Source of the DNA: Spirochaetia bacterium
GTDB lineage: Bacteria > Spirochaetota > Spirochaetia > CAKZLE01
Direction of reading: 5' to 3'
Assembly: GCA_021736385.1 (NCBI GenBank)
Contig: JAIPFY010000001.1
Span: 73,457-137,456, forward strand
Length of the DNA stretch: 64,000 bases
Shown here piece after piece: positions 3,734 to 63,488 of the stretch (positions within the stretch are counted from its first letter, which is position 1; every line of letters begins with the position of its first letter). The position numbers were made by a program, and so were the translations under genes. The notes beneath the pieces were generated by a model. That model had not been told where the DNA came from. It saw only the letters and a list, made by a program, of their open reading frames with translations, and did not search any database.

Positions 3734-4816
3734 TCCTATTCACAGCGACACCGTCGTGATACCCGGGTAGAAGGTGCATGAACAGCAGCCGGATCGCAGC
3801 ATGTCTGCTCATGATCACCACCTCATCGTCTCGAACAGGGTCTTCTGCGCCTCGATACCAGATAAAAGATCATCACTCATAAAAAAAATTTCAGCTGCCC
3901 CCTACTCCTGCTCTTACTGAGGGAACAAGGTTCTTCTCCTCCTGGCTGTCACCTCTGATTCCCGCCACCATCAGACCCGGTCGAGCTCAGGGGATGGAGG
4001 AGCAGCAGAGTCTCAGGTGCTCTGGGTTCCTTAACGTTTCACCGAGCTCTTCTGTTCATGCAGGCTGTCGGATCCTGATGTTTCTGTATTCCGCATCCAT
4101 CGGATCCCCGCGGTCTCACCCCCCTTCGTCCATCACCACTGATGTGCTGACAGCCCATCTTCCAGCGATCGCATCCTGCACTCCATGTTCTTTTACCAAT
4201 GGCAGTTAGACCCTTGCGATCACGATCCTTCCCGGGACCGGATCCTCCGTATGCCGCGCACTGCGCCGACCCTCTCTTCGCCAACTCCACAGGAAGGGAT
4301 GACGCTGAGGACACTCCCGGTCCATCCCAGCCCATTTCTGATCATATGCAGCCTGAAAGATGGACTCAACGGGGAAATCAATACCCGAGACGTACCTCTA
4401 CACCGTGATCCTCATCGTACTGGACCGCTGATACGTGACACTCTGTAATAGCCGATAGACTGCATACACCGCTGTCATCCCACAGAGACGATCAACGGTA
4501 CACCCCTGTTTTTTTTGATTGACAATACCACAGAACCTGTGCAAGCATTCATACGAGTATAAATATTCAAAGGGCAAGTACATGGAAACGTGTACACGCA
4601 AAGTCACAGAGCTTCTAAATCGTCTGATCACGGTCTAATGCTGGCTGGGCTGCAATATTTATTACCGGGAAGAAATCTATAGTTATCTCACATCTGACCA
4701 GCGGTCTGCTGCATGAAATGGTATGCACTGTGACCGTGGGAGACAGGTCTGAGAACATGCATAACAGCCTCTCTAACTATATGCTTTCCTGATAATAGTA
4801 TGCGTGTATACCTGTG

Positions 4817-4849
4817 AAAAGCCCTGAGATAGTCATCTCAGGGCTTTTT
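4817..4849 (+). terminator. Rho-independent terminator or attenuator hairpin immediately upstream of the first MreB-like gene
   Basis: AAAAGCCCTGAGAT-AGTC-ATCTCAGGGCTTTTTC: 14-bp perfect stem, 4-nt loop, T-tract. The GTG start is at 4881. Confidence 0.9.
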
Positions 4850-4880: not shown

Positions 4881-5912
4881 GTGAAAGAGAAAACAGGTAA
4901 GGATCTTTCGGTGGGAATCGACTTGGGCACATCGAATCTGCTGATCTATGTCGAAGGTCAGGGAACCGTCTTCAACGAACCGTCGATCATTGCGATCGAT
5001 CAGGCAACGAAGAACGTCGTCGCGGTTGGATATGAGGCATCCAGCCTGGTGGGCAAGACCCATGACAAAGTGAAGGTCATCAGACCGCTTCAGGGAGGGG
5101 TCATATCCGATATCGATATGATCCGGGAGATTCTCATCTATACCTTCGAGGATATCTTTCATTCCAAGATCGACAGGATCACCAAGCTGATCATCTGCAT
5201 CCCCTCTGAGATCACGGAGACCGAAAAGGATGCCATCATCGAACTCGGTCATGGTCTCGGGATCAGGAACATCACCATCGACGAGGAGATCAAAGCTGCG
5301 GCGATCGGCAGCGGGATCGACATCTATGCGCCCCAGGGGCATCTCGTGGTCGATATCGGGGGAGGCACTACCGATTTCGGGGTCCTCTCGCTCGGGGATG
5401 TGGTCCTTTCACGATCGATCAAGACGGCAGGAGACCACTTCGACCAGCAGATCATCAACTACGTCAAAGAGGCTCATAAACTGGAGATCGGGCTGCAGAC
5501 TGCAGAGAAGATCAAGATACATCTGGCATCCCTCACCGGGAAGCTGCCGACAGATGAAGACGGCAAGACCCTGTTGTTCGATGCGATGGGAAGAGACCTG
5601 GTAGCAGGGCTTCCCCGACAGGTCACGATATCGGCAAAAGAGATCAGGGAACTGATGCTCAGATGCTTTGAGAACATCAGGTCCACGATGATCGCCACCC
5701 TGGAATCGACCCCGCCCGAACTGGCAGGGGATCTCGTCGATAACGGGATCCTGCTCAGCGGAGGCGGAGCCCTGATCCCCGGCATCAAGGAGTTCTTCGA
5801 AGATATCACTCAGGTACCGGTCCATATCTCCGAATCACCATTGGCTGCTGTCATCGACGGCTGTAAAAAACTGCTGAAAGCAGACAAAAAGATCTATCTG
5901 GGGGTTATGTGA
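4881..5912 (+). CDS. MreB/Mbl-like actin homologue (paralogue A)
   Basis: VGIDLGTSNLLIYVEGQGTVFNEPSIIA, VVDIGGGTTDFGVLSLGDVV, GRDLVAGLPR, GILLSGGGALIPGI; SD AAGGAG before the GTG start. Confidence 0.93.
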   Translation: MKEKTGKDLSVGIDLGTSNLLIYVEGQGTVFNEPSIIAIDQATKNVVAVGYEASSLVGKTHDKVKVIRPLQGGVISDIDMIREILIYTFEDIFHSKIDRITKLIICIPSEITETEKDAIIELGHGLGIRNITIDEEIKAAAIGSGIDIYAPQGHLVVDIGGGTTDFGVLSLGDVVLSRSIKTAGDHFDQQIINYVKEAHKLEIGLQTAEKIKIHLASLTGKLPTDEDGKTLLFDAMGRDLVAGLPRQVTISAKEIRELMLRCFENIRSTMIATLESTPPELAGDLVDNGILLSGGGALIPGIKEFFEDITQVPVHISESPLAAVIDGCKKLLKADKKIYLGVM

Positions 5913-6958
5913 TGGGAAAACCTGTAAAGACGAACTTAAAGACACAGGACGATAAGATCAGTCTGGGAATCGATCTGGGGACAGCGAACCTGCTGGTCTA
6001 TCTGGAGAAGAAGGGGATCGTCTTCAACGAGCCGTCAGTGATCGCCTTTGACCGGGAATCGGGTAAGACCGTCGCTGCCGGCAGGGATGCCCATCGGATG
6101 CTCGGCAAGGTCCATAGCAAGATCTCGGTCATAAAGCCCCTGCGAAACGGAGTGATCTCGGACATGCGTGCAGCCAAGGCGCTGCTGTCCTACGTCCTCA
6201 ACCGGGTAGAGAACATGACCGAGAAGCAGCTCCATAAGACCACCACGGTCCTGTGCTGCCCCTCAGAGGTCACCAAGATCGAACGGGATGTCATGATCGA
6301 CCTTGCCCGGAACATGGGTATTCAGGATGTATTCATCGAAGAGGAGATCAAATCAGGAGCTCTGGGAGCCGGGGTCGACATCTTCAAATCCCGCGGGGTC
6401 ATGATCGTGGATGTCGGCGGGGGGACCACCGACATAGGGATCCTCTCCTATGGCGATATCGTCCTCTCACGCACCATCCGTATGGCCGGGACCTTCATGG
6501 ATGACCAGATAGCCAAGTATATCAAGAAATCCCGCAGTGTGGAGATCGGCGAACTGACTGCTGAACGCTGCAAGATAGAACTGGCCGATATCCATGAAGT
6601 GATCAAATCGAATTCCGCCATGTATGCCGGACGCGATATCGTAAAGGGAATACCGCAGTGGATCACCGTCACGACCGAAGAGATACGGGAGGTGCTGATC
6701 CCCACCTTCGAGGAGATCGTCAAACTGGTCTCTGCAGTACTCAAGGACACCCCGCCGGAACTCTCAGCCGATATCTATCAGAACGGGATCCTGCTCACAG
6801 GCGGGGGCGCTCTGGTGCACGGGATCGATGAGTTCATCGAGAGCCGGATCAACGTACCGGTCACGATCGTATCCAACCCCCTCACCTGTGTTGCGGAAGG
6901 CACCAAGTACCTGCTGAAGAACAGGGGTGATTATCTTGTGAACCCTCTGCAGCTGTAG
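5909..6958 (+). CDS. MreB/Mbl-like actin homologue (paralogue B)
   Basis: LGIDLGTANLLVYLEKKGIVFNEPSVIAF, VDVGGGTTDIGILSYGDIVLSRTI, GRDIVKGIPQ, GILLTGGGALVHGI; 4-nt GTGA overlap with paralogue A. Confidence 0.93.
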   Translation: MMGKPVKTNLKTQDDKISLGIDLGTANLLVYLEKKGIVFNEPSVIAFDRESGKTVAAGRDAHRMLGKVHSKISVIKPLRNGVISDMRAAKALLSYVLNRVENMTEKQLHKTTTVLCCPSEVTKIERDVMIDLARNMGIQDVFIEEEIKSGALGAGVDIFKSRGVMIVDVGGGTTDIGILSYGDIVLSRTIRMAGTFMDDQIAKYIKKSRSVEIGELTAERCKIELADIHEVIKSNSAMYAGRDIVKGIPQWITVTTEEIREVLIPTFEEIVKLVSAVLKDTPPELSADIYQNGILLTGGGALVHGIDEFIESRINVPVTIVSNPLTCVAEGTKYLLKNRGDYLVNPLQL

Positions 6959-6986
6959 CAGATGATCTCCCGTTGACTGAACGTCA

Positions 6987-7014
6987 TATGGCACCAACAG
7001 TCTATTGTGCCATA
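6987..7014 (+). other. Intercistronic stem-loop between MreB-like B and C
   Basis: TATGGCAC-N12-GTGCCATA, no T-tract. Confidence 0.6.
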
Positions 7015-7166
7015 GCGACCGGAGGTCGTGAGGATTCCGGAATCGGTATCAGAAGCAGGATGCGCTTCTGTCGCCATCCGGGATGAGCTCCTGTTGCGCC
7101 GGAGGATACAGACAGAACCATGCGGATCGACCCTCCGGCTGCTCACCATGAGAAAGGATAGAACGA

Positions 7167-8207
7167 ATGAATGTGAAAAAGCTTGCACGACAGCAGAAGA
7201 AACAGGCGACGAACATCGGGATAGATCTGGGGACAGCCAACCTTCTGGTCTATGTGGATGAAGAGGGTATCATCTTCAACGAACCCTCTGTCATAGCCAT
7301 GGAATATGCCACGAACAACGTCATCGCGATCGGGGCCAATGCCGCCAGAATGATCGGGCGGGGACACAGCGGGATCAAGATCATCAGTCCGCTCAATCAG
7401 GGGGTCATCTCCGACATGGATGCGGCAAGACAGCTGATCATGATCGCCCTGAAGAAAGTCGAGAACATCAACATCGATCTCTCCTCTTCTACCCTGCTGA
7501 TCTGCTGTCCGTCCGAGGTGACCCAGCTCGAGAAGAACTCACTGATGGAACTCGCGCTCAAACTCGGAGTGCATGATGTCTTCATCGAAGAGGAGGTGAA
7601 AGCCGGCGGGATCGGGGCCGGACTTGATATCTACAGCAGCAACGGGACGATGGTCATAGATATCGGGGGAGGCTCTACCGATGTCGGGGTCCTCTCACTC
7701 GGTGATATCGTCGTATCGGAGTCGATCAGGGTCGCAGGTAACTACTGTGACAACGAGATCATCAACCACCTGCAGTACCGGCACGGCCTGCTGATCGGTA
7801 AGAAGACGGCAGAACGGATCAAAGAAGAGATCGGTTCTCTCAGAGAAGAGATCGAACATGAGCGGACGACCACCGCAAGCGGACGTGACATCGTGACCGG
7901 GCTTCCCAAGAAGATCCTGGTCACCGAATCAGAGATCCGGGATGTCCTGATAGAACCGTTCGAGAGTATCGCAGCTACCATCCTCAAGGTCCTGCAGAGG
8001 ACACCGGCAGAGTTATCTGCCGATATCATCGTCAATGGGATCGTGATCAACGGGGGAGGTGCGCTGATCGACGGGATCGAAGAGTTCCTCAAAAAGCGGG
8101 TGACACTCGATTTCCATATCTCCCGTAAACCGATGACCGCGATCGTAGAGGGGACGAAACTGCTTTTGAAGAACCGCGGCAGCTATTTTGTCAAACCCAC
8201 GGAATAG
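7167..8207 (+). CDS. MreB/Mbl-like actin homologue (paralogue C)
   Basis: IGIDLGTANLLVYVDEEGIIFNEPSVIAM, VIDIGGGSTDVGVLSLGDIVVSESI, GRDIVTGLPK, GIVINGGGALIDGI; lysine/arginine-rich N-terminus MNVKKLARQQKKQ. Confidence 0.93.
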   Translation: MNVKKLARQQKKQATNIGIDLGTANLLVYVDEEGIIFNEPSVIAMEYATNNVIAIGANAARMIGRGHSGIKIISPLNQGVISDMDAARQLIMIALKKVENINIDLSSSTLLICCPSEVTQLEKNSLMELALKLGVHDVFIEEEVKAGGIGAGLDIYSSNGTMVIDIGGGSTDVGVLSLGDIVVSESIRVAGNYCDNEIINHLQYRHGLLIGKKTAERIKEEIGSLREEIEHERTTTASGRDIVTGLPKKILVTESEIRDVLIEPFESIAATILKVLQRTPAELSADIIVNGIVINGGGALIDGIEEFLKKRVTLDFHISRKPMTAIVEGTKLLLKNRGSYFVKPTE

Positions 8208-8605
8208 GACCAGCGAAGAGCTGCTGCCGGCATCTGCCTGCGGCAGGGATCCATCAGCACTAAGGACCGTTTACAGATTGTTTCCTTGAACGACCGGCCA
8301 TGCGCCTGAACCATGCATATGATCAATACGTAATGAGTAATGAGTGATCGATGAAGGAGAGAGACCATACCTGCGCAGCTGCTTTCGAACAGGTGCAGCT
8401 GCAGCGGTCATGCAAGCGCATGGGGATCTTCAAGCGGTACCGGAGGCAGAGGTCCTCTGTACCGCACGTCCGAAAAGAAAACCTGTTTTCCAGATACCAC
8501 GAGCTCTCCGGTGCAGGCTGCTGCAGTAGCTGCACTCCTGCTCCGGAGAGACTTCATCTATGAAAATATCTGTTCAGAGATCAGCCTGAACAAAAGAGGA
8601 TACCC

Positions 8606-10144
8606 ATGGAACATCCTGTGACACATAGAACACTCCTGCCTGCCTACCTGCTTACTGCGACGCTGTTCATACTGGCAGCTGCGACCCGCACGCCGCTGTT
8701 TGCCCGTCCCGGCCTCCAGTTGAGTCTGGCAGTGCTGCTGCTGCTGATCATATCACTTCTTATCTGGACCAGAGGTGATCAGCAGCGACCTCATCCGGAG
8801 AAGGTATATCAGTCGATCAGAGAACGGTATCGACATGAGAAGGCAGGCCGCTATTACTGTATAGCCTTCGAATACCATAACAGCGGTAAATATCATTCCA
8901 TGATCGACCTGAACTTCAACAGGAGCTATCAGGAGGAGTTCTTTACCAGACTCTGTACGCTGTTCGGATCAAGACACGTGTTCGCACTCGAACGTGATCA
9001 GACGATCATCGTAACGAGATTCACCGATCCTGAAGCTGTACCGGAGGTGCTCCTGCAGGAGATGGAGGAGACGACCCGCAGCATCTGCACCAGATTCCAT
9101 GATCTGCTGAAGATGATCCCGATCGAGAACCGTCACTACATCAAGATCTCCGTGGGGACGGCCTCTCAGGGGATCCGCCGTGAGTTCACGACAGTCTATG
9201 ATCTGGTGCAGCTGGCACAGTTCACCAAGCTGGCGGCAAAAGAACGCAAGGTGCCCTATCTCATAGCCGATGAACCCCTTCGGGCACTCAAGAGAGATAT
9301 CGATGACTTCACCCGATCCATGGATGAACGGTTCAAACTCGATGAGTTCAACCCCTTCTTCCAACCGGTCATCGATCTGAGAACAAACAGGATCATCGGA
9401 TGTGAGAGTTTCGTGCGCTGGCAGAAGGATACCTATCGGATCATAGAGGCGAAGAAGTTCACCGAGATCGCCAATGAGAAGAACACGCTCAAGGACATCG
9501 ATGTCCATGTGATCAACAAGACCTTCCACTTCATCTGGGATCTGCACAGGCAGCAGCTCATCGCTGATGATTTCATCATGATGGTGAATATCAGCGCCAA
9601 CACGCTCAAGGAACTGGATGTCGCAGAGCTCAGGAGCCTTGCCGATAGGTATGAACTCGATCCTGGCCTGATCGAGTTCGACATCAAGGATGAACCACTG
9701 AGTGATCCCTTCATGATCTCCTGTGTACGGCAGCTTCGCAGGGCTGGCTTCAAAGTGGCCGTCGACATCTTCACCTCCGACACCTTTGCCCTACGGTCGT
9801 TCCTCTATAACAGCTTCGACACCATCAAGATCGATAAATCCATCCTGACAGGCACCGACAGGCTTCCGGACGGACCAGCGTGCAAGCAGGTGCACTCAGC
9901 GGTAGAGCATGCAGAGAAGACGATCCGTGAAGAGCGGGAGTTCACCTTCTATAAGACCATCGTACAGGCTTCACGTTCCATGCAGATCAAGAGGATGCTC
10001 AAAGGTGTGGAGCACCGCCATCACCTCGATTTCGCCCGAAGACTCAAGATCGATTATGTCCAGGGGTACTACTTCACCCCTCCACTGGAACAGCATGCCT
10101 TCGTCGAATATATGCTCAAGTACCGGGAGGGGATCCTCGTCTGA
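8606..10144 (+). CDS. Membrane-anchored protein with degenerate GGDEF-like and degenerate EAL domains
   Basis: Two N-terminal TM segments; EAL-fold landmarks GCESFVRW, MVNISANTL, IEFDIKDE, VDIFTSDTFAL, IKIDKSIL, YVQGYYFTPPL. Confidence 0.82.
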   Translation: MEHPVTHRTLLPAYLLTATLFILAAATRTPLFARPGLQLSLAVLLLLIISLLIWTRGDQQRPHPEKVYQSIRERYRHEKAGRYYCIAFEYHNSGKYHSMIDLNFNRSYQEEFFTRLCTLFGSRHVFALERDQTIIVTRFTDPEAVPEVLLQEMEETTRSICTRFHDLLKMIPIENRHYIKISVGTASQGIRREFTTVYDLVQLAQFTKLAAKERKVPYLIADEPLRALKRDIDDFTRSMDERFKLDEFNPFFQPVIDLRTNRIIGCESFVRWQKDTYRIIEAKKFTEIANEKNTLKDIDVHVINKTFHFIWDLHRQQLIADDFIMMVNISANTLKELDVAELRSLADRYELDPGLIEFDIKDEPLSDPFMISCVRQLRRAGFKVAVDIFTSDTFALRSFLYNSFDTIKIDKSILTGTDRLPDGPACKQVHSAVEHAEKTIREEREFTFYKTIVQASRSMQIKRMLKGVEHRHHLDFARRLKIDYVQGYYFTPPLEQHAFVEYMLKYREGILV

Positions 10145-62131: not shown

Positions 62132-63280
62132 TTAAGATCTTTTCTCAATCACTTCCCGGGCCGGCTGCAGCTGATTCAGGATATCTTCCGGTGTCCTGTG
62201 ATCATATTCCTTCCTGAAGCTGGTATGGGCCATGAGCTCCAGGAGAATCTTCTGGTCCACATTACCTGCCAGATGAGTCTCGAAGGAATGCCGCAGTGAA
62301 TACTGAGTCCTTCCGTTGAGCAATATTCCTGCTCGGGACATCGATAATCGTAAATGTTTGTTTGCCGTGTCCGGGATGATCGGCCTACCCTGTTTTACTT
62401 GGAACAGAAGGTCGTTCCCTGCTATAGGAGCATCATCTAGAAGCTTGTGAATCTGTTTCATAGCCTGATCTGACAATAACCCTACTTTATACTTGAAACC
62501 TTTATCTGACGTCTTAATGCGATCCTTCACGGCAGCAGTTCGATAATCAATGCTCCTTTCAGTATAGACACCCTGATATTTCTCACTGATGTTCGAAGGA
62601 CTGAGGGCCGCAACCTCTCCTGGTCGGAAGCCCGTATCCCGCATCACCAAGAAATAGGCAGCCCACATTCGGGATCCCCATATCCTCAGCAGATCCTGTT
62701 CGTTCCTTGGGAACATCTTGAACAGTTCGATATCCGTAAACGGGTCCCGTCTTACATGCTCTGCAGTGATTTCCTTTACGTTCAAAGCCGGGTTATCTTT
62801 GATATATCGTTGCCGCTTTGCTTCCTGCAGTACCATCCGAAAGCAGAACAATACCTTGTTCTTTGAATCGTCAGAAAGCTCTGTACCATTCGTATGACTG
62901 ACCAACTCAACAAACCAATCCTCTATCATTACATCTGAAATTGCAGACAGCAAAAACATCCCAAATCTCGGGATGATATAGTTATCAAGCCGACCCTGGT
63001 GAGCTTTGTAGTAATGGTCAGAGTAGAACTTTTTACGCTTTTCATTCCGCTTCCGGTAGCCTTGTGAGTCCTCTGAGAAAAAGCCTGTAGCAAATTCTTT
63101 AAGGGTAACATCCTTCTTTGTAACTGTTGAACCAAGATCCTCTTTCAGCTTCCTTTCAGCCCATAGAACTGCTTCCGTGTGATTGTGCGTTTGGGTTGAG
63201 AACCACCTGCCAGGTATGTGGGCAAAAGAGACTTGGATAGCTCTACCTTTGCGGCTTATGAATTTATATTTACTTTTCAT
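62132..63280 (-). CDS. Tyrosine recombinase / phage-type integrase
   Basis: RDTGFRPGEVAAL; YSLRHSFETHLAG; LMAHTSFRKEYDHRTPEDIL with catalytic-type R, H and Y. Confidence 0.9.
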   Translation of the reverse strand: MKSKYKFISRKGRAIQVSFAHIPGRWFSTQTHNHTEAVLWAERKLKEDLGSTVTKKDVTLKEFATGFFSEDSQGYRKRNEKRKKFYSDHYYKAHQGRLDNYIIPRFGMFLLSAISDVMIEDWFVELVSHTNGTELSDDSKNKVLFCFRMVLQEAKRQRYIKDNPALNVKEITAEHVRRDPFTDIELFKMFPRNEQDLLRIWGSRMWAAYFLVMRDTGFRPGEVAALSPSNISEKYQGVYTERSIDYRTAAVKDRIKTSDKGFKYKVGLLSDQAMKQIHKLLDDAPIAGNDLLFQVKQGRPIIPDTANKHLRLSMSRAGILLNGRTQYSLRHSFETHLAGNVDQKILLELMAHTSFRKEYDHRTPEDILNQLQPAREVIEKRS

Positions 63281-63358
63281 ATGTTAAGTATAATGCAGCT
63301 TAATATATGTTGTAAAGACAGATTTTACGTACACTTTTGCGTACAATTTAGGGTGTCT

Positions 63359-63389
63359 AAAAAAATAACTCCCTACATTGTAAGGAGTT
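63359..63389 (-). terminator. Rho-independent terminator of tRNA-Leu
   Basis: Minus strand AACTCCTTACA-A-TGTAGGGAGTT then A and seven T. Confidence 0.75.
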
Positions 63390-63404
63390 GAAAATAAATC
63401 TTGT

Positions 63405-63488
63405 TGCCCGAAAGAAGACTCGAACTTCCACGTCCTTGCGGACACTAGTCCCTGAAACTAGCGCGTCTACCAATTCCGCCATTCGGGC
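63405..63488 (-). tRNA. tRNA-Leu, anticodon CAG (CCA not encoded)
   Basis: Minus strand GCCCGAATGGCGGAATTGGTAGACGCGCTAGTTTCAGGGACTAGTGTCCGCAAGGACGTGGAAGTTCGAGTCTTCTTTCGGGCA; acceptor, D, anticodon, long variable and T arms all fold. Confidence 0.96.

Follow-up and report, generated by a model that had tools for sequence, protein, structure and literature searches.

MreB-family proteins, cytoskeletons built from several MreBs, class I riboswitches for cyclic di-guanosine monophosphate (c-di-GMP) and degenerate EAL-domain receptors are each known singly; LapD and FimX are degenerate GGDEF-EAL receptors of the last kind. The action of MreB5 in Spiroplasma does not depend on peptidoglycan synthesis (PMC9195046). 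Among spirochaetes, a published account of Sphaerochaeta and Bullifex records that both lack rodA, mreC and the penicillin-binding proteins (PBPs) PBP1a, PBP2 and PBP C, and that mreB itself is missing among them solely from B. porci and S. coccoides (PMC7738495). The locus described here lies within 64,000 nucleotides of a Spirochaetia bacterium (contig JAIPFY010000001.1, positions 73,457 to 137,456), hereafter the window, where three tandem MreB genes, termed A, B and C, stand between a c-di-GMP-I riboswitch and a gene for a degenerate EAL protein. With a probability of about 0.62 for the explanation as a whole, this cassette was interpreted as an actin cytoskeleton of the Spiroplasma/Haloplasma type that was acquired horizontally, is controlled by c-di-GMP and operates without a Rod complex. 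No description of the cassette's union of parts, of its role as the sole MreB set in spirochaetes, or of its transfer between phyla was found in a limited literature search.

Genes A (4881..5912), B (5909..6958) and C (7167..8207) are all on the forward strand and encode proteins of 343, 349 and 346 amino acids; A begins with GTG and is preceded by a ribosome-binding site, AGGAG. As the preliminary description of this DNA had stated, all three frames are complete and those of A and B share 4 nt. The PF06723 (MreB_Mbl) profile spanned the whole of each protein (E = 2e-114, 4.5e-112 and 5.7e-112 respectively; 374–382 bits against a curated cut-off of 27) and pairwise identity among the three was 44–45%. 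Full-length matches at E-values of 1e-112 to 1e-114, together with this mutual identity, exclude chance. The intervals between B and C (6959-7166, 208 nt) and between C and the EAL gene (8208-8605, 398 nt) far exceed those of the other cassettes examined, where the gap between B and C is usually 3–12 nt.

The solved structures closest to B were Spiroplasma MreB5 and MreB3 (7bvy, 7e1c), which ranked above the MreBs of Geobacillus, Caulobacter and Thermotoga. When the ATP-site residues were taken as defined for Spiroplasma MreB5 (PMC9195046), alignment showed the Asp, Glu, Asp and Thr to be intact in the window's A and B proteins; in C, Ser stands instead of Thr161 (GGGTT to GGGST) in 15 of 16 proteins across both phyla that carry the cassette. 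A, B and C also have a polar loop where canonical MreBs hold hydrophobic membrane-insertion residues (e.g., RRFVKPR), which suggests that their attachment to the membrane may use other surfaces, or the EAL protein.

It had been noted at the outset that the usual morphogenesis partners do not lie beside the array, and this proved true of the whole genome (G000): mreC, pbp2 and rodA were found neither adjoining A, B and C nor elsewhere, while MreD and RodZ were not searched for. A, B and C were the sole MreBs recovered by the PF06723 search, the remaining two matches being far weaker and partial, in frames of 654 amino acids (which fits DnaK) and 421 amino acids (which fits FtsA, near ftsW). A separate housekeeping mreBCD locus was therefore rejected on the strength of the MreB and MreC searches, and none of the three copies is a canonical MreB next to mreC or mreD. 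The proposal of a multi-component cytoskeleton distinct from the housekeeping MreB stood in so far as phylogeny grouped A, B and C with Spiroplasma MreBs (see below), but failed in that the genome has no housekeeping MreB.

MreC (PF04085) gave no match in G000 or in the array-bearing relatives G001, G003, G017 and G040, and was present in 46 of 60 relatives. What G000 does retain is one SEDS (shape, elongation, division and sporulation) protein, of the FtsW type and near FtsA, and one PBP transpeptidase, so that it does not qualify as a wall-less host; the flagellar export protein FlhA gave no match. The assembly is a 94%-complete draft in 113 contigs; Rod partners are likewise missing from near-complete relatives, and the pattern of PBP number and flagella recurs in single-contig genomes. 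All array-bearing spirochaetes tested had one SEDS and one PBP left, and FlhA was absent from every one of those tested. Relatives with a canonical MreB had MreC and, a few draft genomes aside, three SEDS matches, and in three of these, where PBPs and flagella were also searched for, three or four PBPs and FlhA were present. The array is thus unlike the canonical MreB of a Rod complex, having no mreC, no RodA or PBP2 and a different position in the tree.

The class is Spirochaetia, for 6 kb of one genome, G041, were 100% identical to a Borrelia anserina plasmid. Among 398 sampled genomes of this class, such arrays occurred in only four families, designated f1, f3, f8 and f17. They were present in two genomes of f1 (G000 and G001), in one of f3 (G003, where the array runs across two contigs and two genes were seen), in 12 of f8, several of them on single contigs, and in three of f17 (G017, G073 and, in pieces, G040). 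The nine members of f8 that were searched had one PBP or none, and no FlhA, and some genera of this family were without any MreB. This gene content agrees with what is published on Sphaerochaeta and Bullifex (PMC7738495), and it can be strongly inferred that f8 is Sphaerochaetaceae. A three-actin array had been called unusual; it is not a private oddity of this genome, given its recurrence in f8 and in Bacilli. Nor did the limited literature search return any description of the array in this clade, only the record of Sphaerochaeta mreB without mreC or rodA (PMC7738495).

Two further observations concern the distribution. MreB-free genomes occur also in families f3, f8 and f17 (G008, G029, G033, G049, G052, G057 and others), and in G033 the search for a PBP transpeptidase was also negative. 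In the sister genus G001 (L006:10269-13164), A contains an in-frame TAA and C is split into two frames, with the riboswitch and EAL gene still in place; this reflects either decay of the array or assembly errors.

The same cassette was found in another phylum. A profile search was applied to 397 genomes from the class of an uncultured Tenericutes genome, i.e., Bacilli, a class to which belong Spiroplasma-like genomes that have several MreBs and read TGA as a sense codon. About 18 genomes had MreBs scoring 450–550 bits, the level of the spirochaete arrays, where the same profile gave approximately 390 bits for Spiroplasma and 320–340 for canonical spirochaete MreB. Ten Bacilli genomes held one each of A, B and C, and nine of these sets, examined in full, showed identities to the window proteins of 64–70% (A), 69–78% (B) and 65–74% (C); they are as near to the window proteins as those of f8 are. 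Across other cassettes the corresponding protein identities were 64–77% for A, 69–78% for B and 65–83% for C, against only 35–43% to the canonical MreB of spirochaetes. The gene order, A-B-C-EAL, is common to spirochaetes and Bacilli. Absence of SEDS, used as a proxy for the wall-less state in the Bacilli hosts, was observed in nine of the ten A-B-C genomes and in a Spiroplasma-like control, the tenth having a single copy.

Six further Bacilli genomes had double arrays of a second type, and their MreB copy number suggests that they belong to Haloplasma or its relatives. These arrays (L154:6322-8214 and L154:10606-12033, with the same arrangement in L155) are interleaved with two conserved proteins of approximately 630 and 475–525 amino acids without a clear Pfam family, possible cytoskeletal partners of a new sort. 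In another member of the Bacilli (G419, L170:3241-12849) there was a tandem duplication of a unit comprising two MreB genes, an EAL-like gene and an uncharacterized gene of 343 amino acids, which means that the association of MreB with EAL may predate A-B-C.

Phylogenetic analysis of 110 MreB proteins (IQ-TREE, LG+C20+F+G4), including Spiroplasma and canonical MreB, Mbl and MreBH sequences as had been proposed, recovered a branch with 100/100 support that separated canonical MreB/Mbl/MreBH, those of spirochaetes among them, from the Spiroplasma MreBs and all arrays. A, B and C each formed a single clade (100/100) of seven spirochaete and nine Bacilli proteins. With at least three MreB paralogues on the Spiroplasma side of that branch, the locus shows one of the marks of a Spiroplasma/Haloplasma-type cytoskeleton. 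When A, B and C were concatenated, the spirochaete cassettes became one clade (98/96) adjoining one lineage of Bacilli. The Haloplasma-like and two-gene Bacilli arrays surround A-B-C in the tree, the former falling between Spiroplasma and A-B-C. Since these arrays, like Spiroplasma, are all from Bacilli, transfer most likely proceeded from Tenericutes-like Bacilli to spirochaetes. The f17 array is not an A-B-C set; its three genes nest singly within the Haloplasma-like arrays, each in turn among the genes there, and this gene-by-gene nesting indicates a second, independent acquisition. The f17 arrays (L007:7443-10622 and L098:5097-8262) are without a riboswitch and, as far as their short contigs reach, without an EAL neighbour.

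That A-B-C is of horizontal origin and that the cassette is one unit can both be held with high confidence. An alternative, in which the spirochaete's own mreB was duplicated into an array once the Rod complex had been lost, draws on the coincidence of array presence with loss of mreC, rodA and flagella in the same families. Against it, forcing all spirochaete MreBs into a single clade cost 1073 log units and was rejected by the approximately unbiased test (p-AU = 0.0009); the identity of A, B and C reaches 78% with Bacilli orthologues, compared with 35–43% for the canonical spirochaete MreB, and a riboswitch otherwise absent from the spirochaetes searched occurs at the arrays. This origin was rejected, and hardly any weight is left to it. 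Still less can be attached to an artefact of binning or assembly, for which the fragmented state of the draft might speak: the array sits within a 214-kb contig, its guanine plus cytosine content (GC) is 54.3% against 52.3% in the rest of the window, and the same cassette was found in single-contig genomes (e.g., G195, G237 and G257). In several Bacilli the arrays have a GC of about 32–35% and the genomes 27–30%; the array therefore tracks the composition of its own genome, which indicates that the transfer was old and was not a binning error.

A plasmid or phage was considered as the vehicle of transfer and rejected, because searches there found only MreBs of less than 60% identity, the best being approximately 44%. 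One plasmid of the Mycoplasmatota (CP074574.1) carries a lone MreB without the cassette. A scan of contigs with general MreB motifs was uninformative about carriers of the cassette or about other phyla, as the matches listed were ordinary MreBs.

The leader of gene A supplied further evidence. A c-di-GMP-I aptamer (RF01051) matched on the forward strand at 4563..4657 with 51.0 bits, against a gathering threshold of 35, and was followed at 4818..4847 (+) by an intrinsic-terminator hairpin (AAAGCCCTGAGAT-AGTC-ATCTCAGGGCTTT, then TT; -20.3 kcal/mol) that lies 33 nt before A and has a T run after it. The hairpin is the putative expression platform of the riboswitch; a terminator 38–45 nt before A was clear in all eight Bacilli leaders examined. 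RF01051 elements were also present 5' of A in G001, G003 and nine of the ten Bacilli cassettes, with orthologous leaders scoring 56–77 bits, and the cassette without one belongs to G592, where the EAL gene sits upstream of A. A genome-wide search under stricter filters located RF01051 a single time in G000, in G001 and in G003, always at the array, and matched nothing in 24 further spirochaete genomes; most Bacilli with the cassette had 2–6 copies. This distribution gives strong and independent support to the view that the cassette travelled together with its switch and came from a donor in which such switches are in general use. In folding, the 3' strand of the aptamer could pair with its own 5' end or, in seven of 11 leaders, with a downstream segment, which is compatible with c-di-GMP as either an ON or an OFF signal. 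A scan for sigma-70 promoters produced no more matches than in shuffled sequence. As for the f8 and f17 arrays, they either lost the riboswitch or never had it.

Downstream of C, at 8606..10144 on the forward strand, is a gene for a membrane protein with a GGDEF-like domain and an EAL domain whose active site is degenerate (PF00563, E = 6e-39). An orthologue was present in every A-B-C array whose contig extends far enough. The AlphaFold model (mean predicted local distance difference test score, pLDDT, 80.8) comprised two N-terminal hydrophobic helices followed by the two domains, and its best matches in the PDB were GGDEF-EAL proteins, namely PA0575, MorA, DosP and LapD (3pjw). The EAL Glu, the Asn, the first Asp, the catalytic Lys and the Gln are retained. 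In all orthologues, however, the second Asp of DDFGTG is replaced and the first Glu of LExTE is Asp, and in all complete orthologues, from both phyla, an invariant Lys takes the place of the first Glu of AEGVE, giving KG(V/I)E. Loss of the metal site in both phyla points to a non-catalytic role as receptor or scaffold, and judged by its residues the protein is probably a non-catalytic c-di-GMP receptor, a membrane anchor for filaments, or both. GGDEF domains were plentiful in the cassette genomes searched, and so c-di-GMP is likely to be available there; none were found in the Spiroplasma-like genome searched.

Taken together, these data suggest the following mechanism. Non-flagellated spirochaetes without a Rod complex would have gained the cassette by horizontal transfer, Tenericutes-like Bacilli being the most likely source, and in them it would replace the normal shape-setting actin. 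Binding of c-di-GMP to the leader RNA would decide, with either polarity, whether transcription passes the terminator. The three co-evolving, ATP-binding actins would next form filaments associated with the membrane, probably joint ones, and these would set or alter the shape of the cell without guiding synthesis of the lateral wall, in the manner of Spiroplasma MreBs, with the EAL protein and its broken metal site acting as a c-di-GMP receptor, as a membrane anchor for the filaments, or as both. A bolder form of this mechanism envisages a transferable morphogenesis module, comprising the riboswitch, three MreBs in one mixed filament and a membrane receptor that couples assembly to the signal, which moved from wall-less Bacilli into spirochaetes and replaced ancestral shaping by MreB, the Rod complex and flagella, a related Haloplasma-like array having moved separately; this is put forward tentatively, at somewhat less than even odds.

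Several observations weigh against this account of a c-di-GMP-controlled, membrane-associated cytoskeleton. The spirochaete hosts retain FtsW and FtsI and so are not wall-less like Spiroplasma. RF01051 had no match in the Sphaerochaeta-like f8 arrays, so the cassette can do without control by c-di-GMP at that level. In two Bacilli (L163, L164) the hydrophobic helices are missing from the N-terminus of the EAL partner, which weakens the idea of an anchor. Several close genera have lost MreB completely, showing the system to be dispensable in this lifestyle.

Other functions for the array can be set against the same evidence. It might assist division by positioning septal wall synthesis by FtsW and FtsI, a role broadly like that of MreB in coccoid Chlamydia. 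The spirochaete array genomes tested have a single SEDS, near FtsA, and a single PBP left, and Sphaerochaeta is reported to be spherical with mur genes kept (PMC7738495). Yet an orthologous cassette in nine Bacilli without SEDS cannot serve FtsW there, no divisome gene adjoins the array, and members of the same families without MreB keep FtsW and, with one exception, FtsI, so that a role in division is unlikely. Somewhat less likely again is a motility engine, driving contraction, bending or surface movement of non-flagellated cells as in Spiroplasma and as suggested for Haloplasma. The missing FlhA and the position of the array on the Spiroplasma side of the tree would suit this role, as would the seven MreBs and switching cell shape of Haloplasma (PMC8432965) and the common control of motility by c-di-GMP, but Sphaerochaeta is described as non-spiral and spherical and no such motility was reported in the literature searched. 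With regard to the EAL protein, the complete fold and the retained residues listed above might indicate an active c-di-GMP phosphodiesterase exerting negative feedback on the operon; this was rejected as very improbable because the second metal-binding Asp and the first Glu of both LExTE and AEGVE are changed in all complete orthologues of both phyla.

The c-di-GMP-controlled cytoskeleton favoured here bears on the retention of MreB in spirochaetes of the Sphaerochaeta type, from which every Rod partner has gone, since it suggests that the gene kept is an imported set and not their own MreB. It also connects the question of how some spirochaetes came to lose their spiral shape with that of the cytoskeletons built from several MreBs in wall-less Bacilli, and offers a natural system in which to observe MreB function without a Rod complex, in both walled and apparently wall-less hosts. 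If correct, an actin operon with a c-di-GMP riboswitch before it and a degenerate c-di-GMP enzyme after it would be a direct link between a second messenger and a bacterial actin. Experimental access should be possible because cultured Sphaerochaeta have mreB without Rod partners (PMC7738495).

Two other features of the window were recorded. At 62132-63488, a phage-type integrase gene adjoins a gene for tRNA-Leu(CAG), the usual mark of the end of an integrated element. At 1345-2900, an extracytoplasmic function (ECF) sigma factor is followed by a protein whose C-terminus matches the glycogen-binding CBM48/AMPK1_CBM domains, and which is perhaps an anti-sigma factor sensing a polysaccharide.

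Among described systems, MreB1-5 of Spiroplasma resemble the array in being several MreB paralogues with ATPase residues kept, in a host without a Rod complex and on the same side of the tree. They differ in that their genes fall outside the array clade and have no A-B-C order, riboswitch or EAL partner, and in that the spirochaete hosts of the array keep FtsW/FtsI. The contractile set of seven MreBs in Haloplasma (PMC8432965) is comparable because Haloplasma-like Bacilli genomes, an identity assigned by inference, hold three-MreB arrays, but there the partner genes are different and no riboswitch accompanies the array. Bacillus, with MreB, Mbl and MreBH, also has three MreB paralogues per cell, and an E-E-E-x-K motif by the catalytic Glu is common to the array, one Bacillus paralogue (L119) and other, single-copy MreBs of Bacilli; in contrast to the array, the Bacillus genes are scattered, form a separate clade and accompany a full Rod complex with three SEDS proteins. 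The window's EAL protein shares with LapD and FimX a GGDEF-EAL fold with broken catalytic residues, and is unlike them in that no HAMP or periplasmic output domain was seen and in its tie to MreB genes. The nearest published record is that of Sphaerochaeta mreB without mreC or rodA (PMC7738495), which very likely concerns the same genes as the f8 arrays, rodA, mreC and most PBPs being gone; the extracts of that source give the presence of mreB only, with no mention found in them of three paralogues, a foreign origin, a riboswitch or an EAL partner, the features by which the cassette is recognized here in spirochaetes and Bacilli alike.

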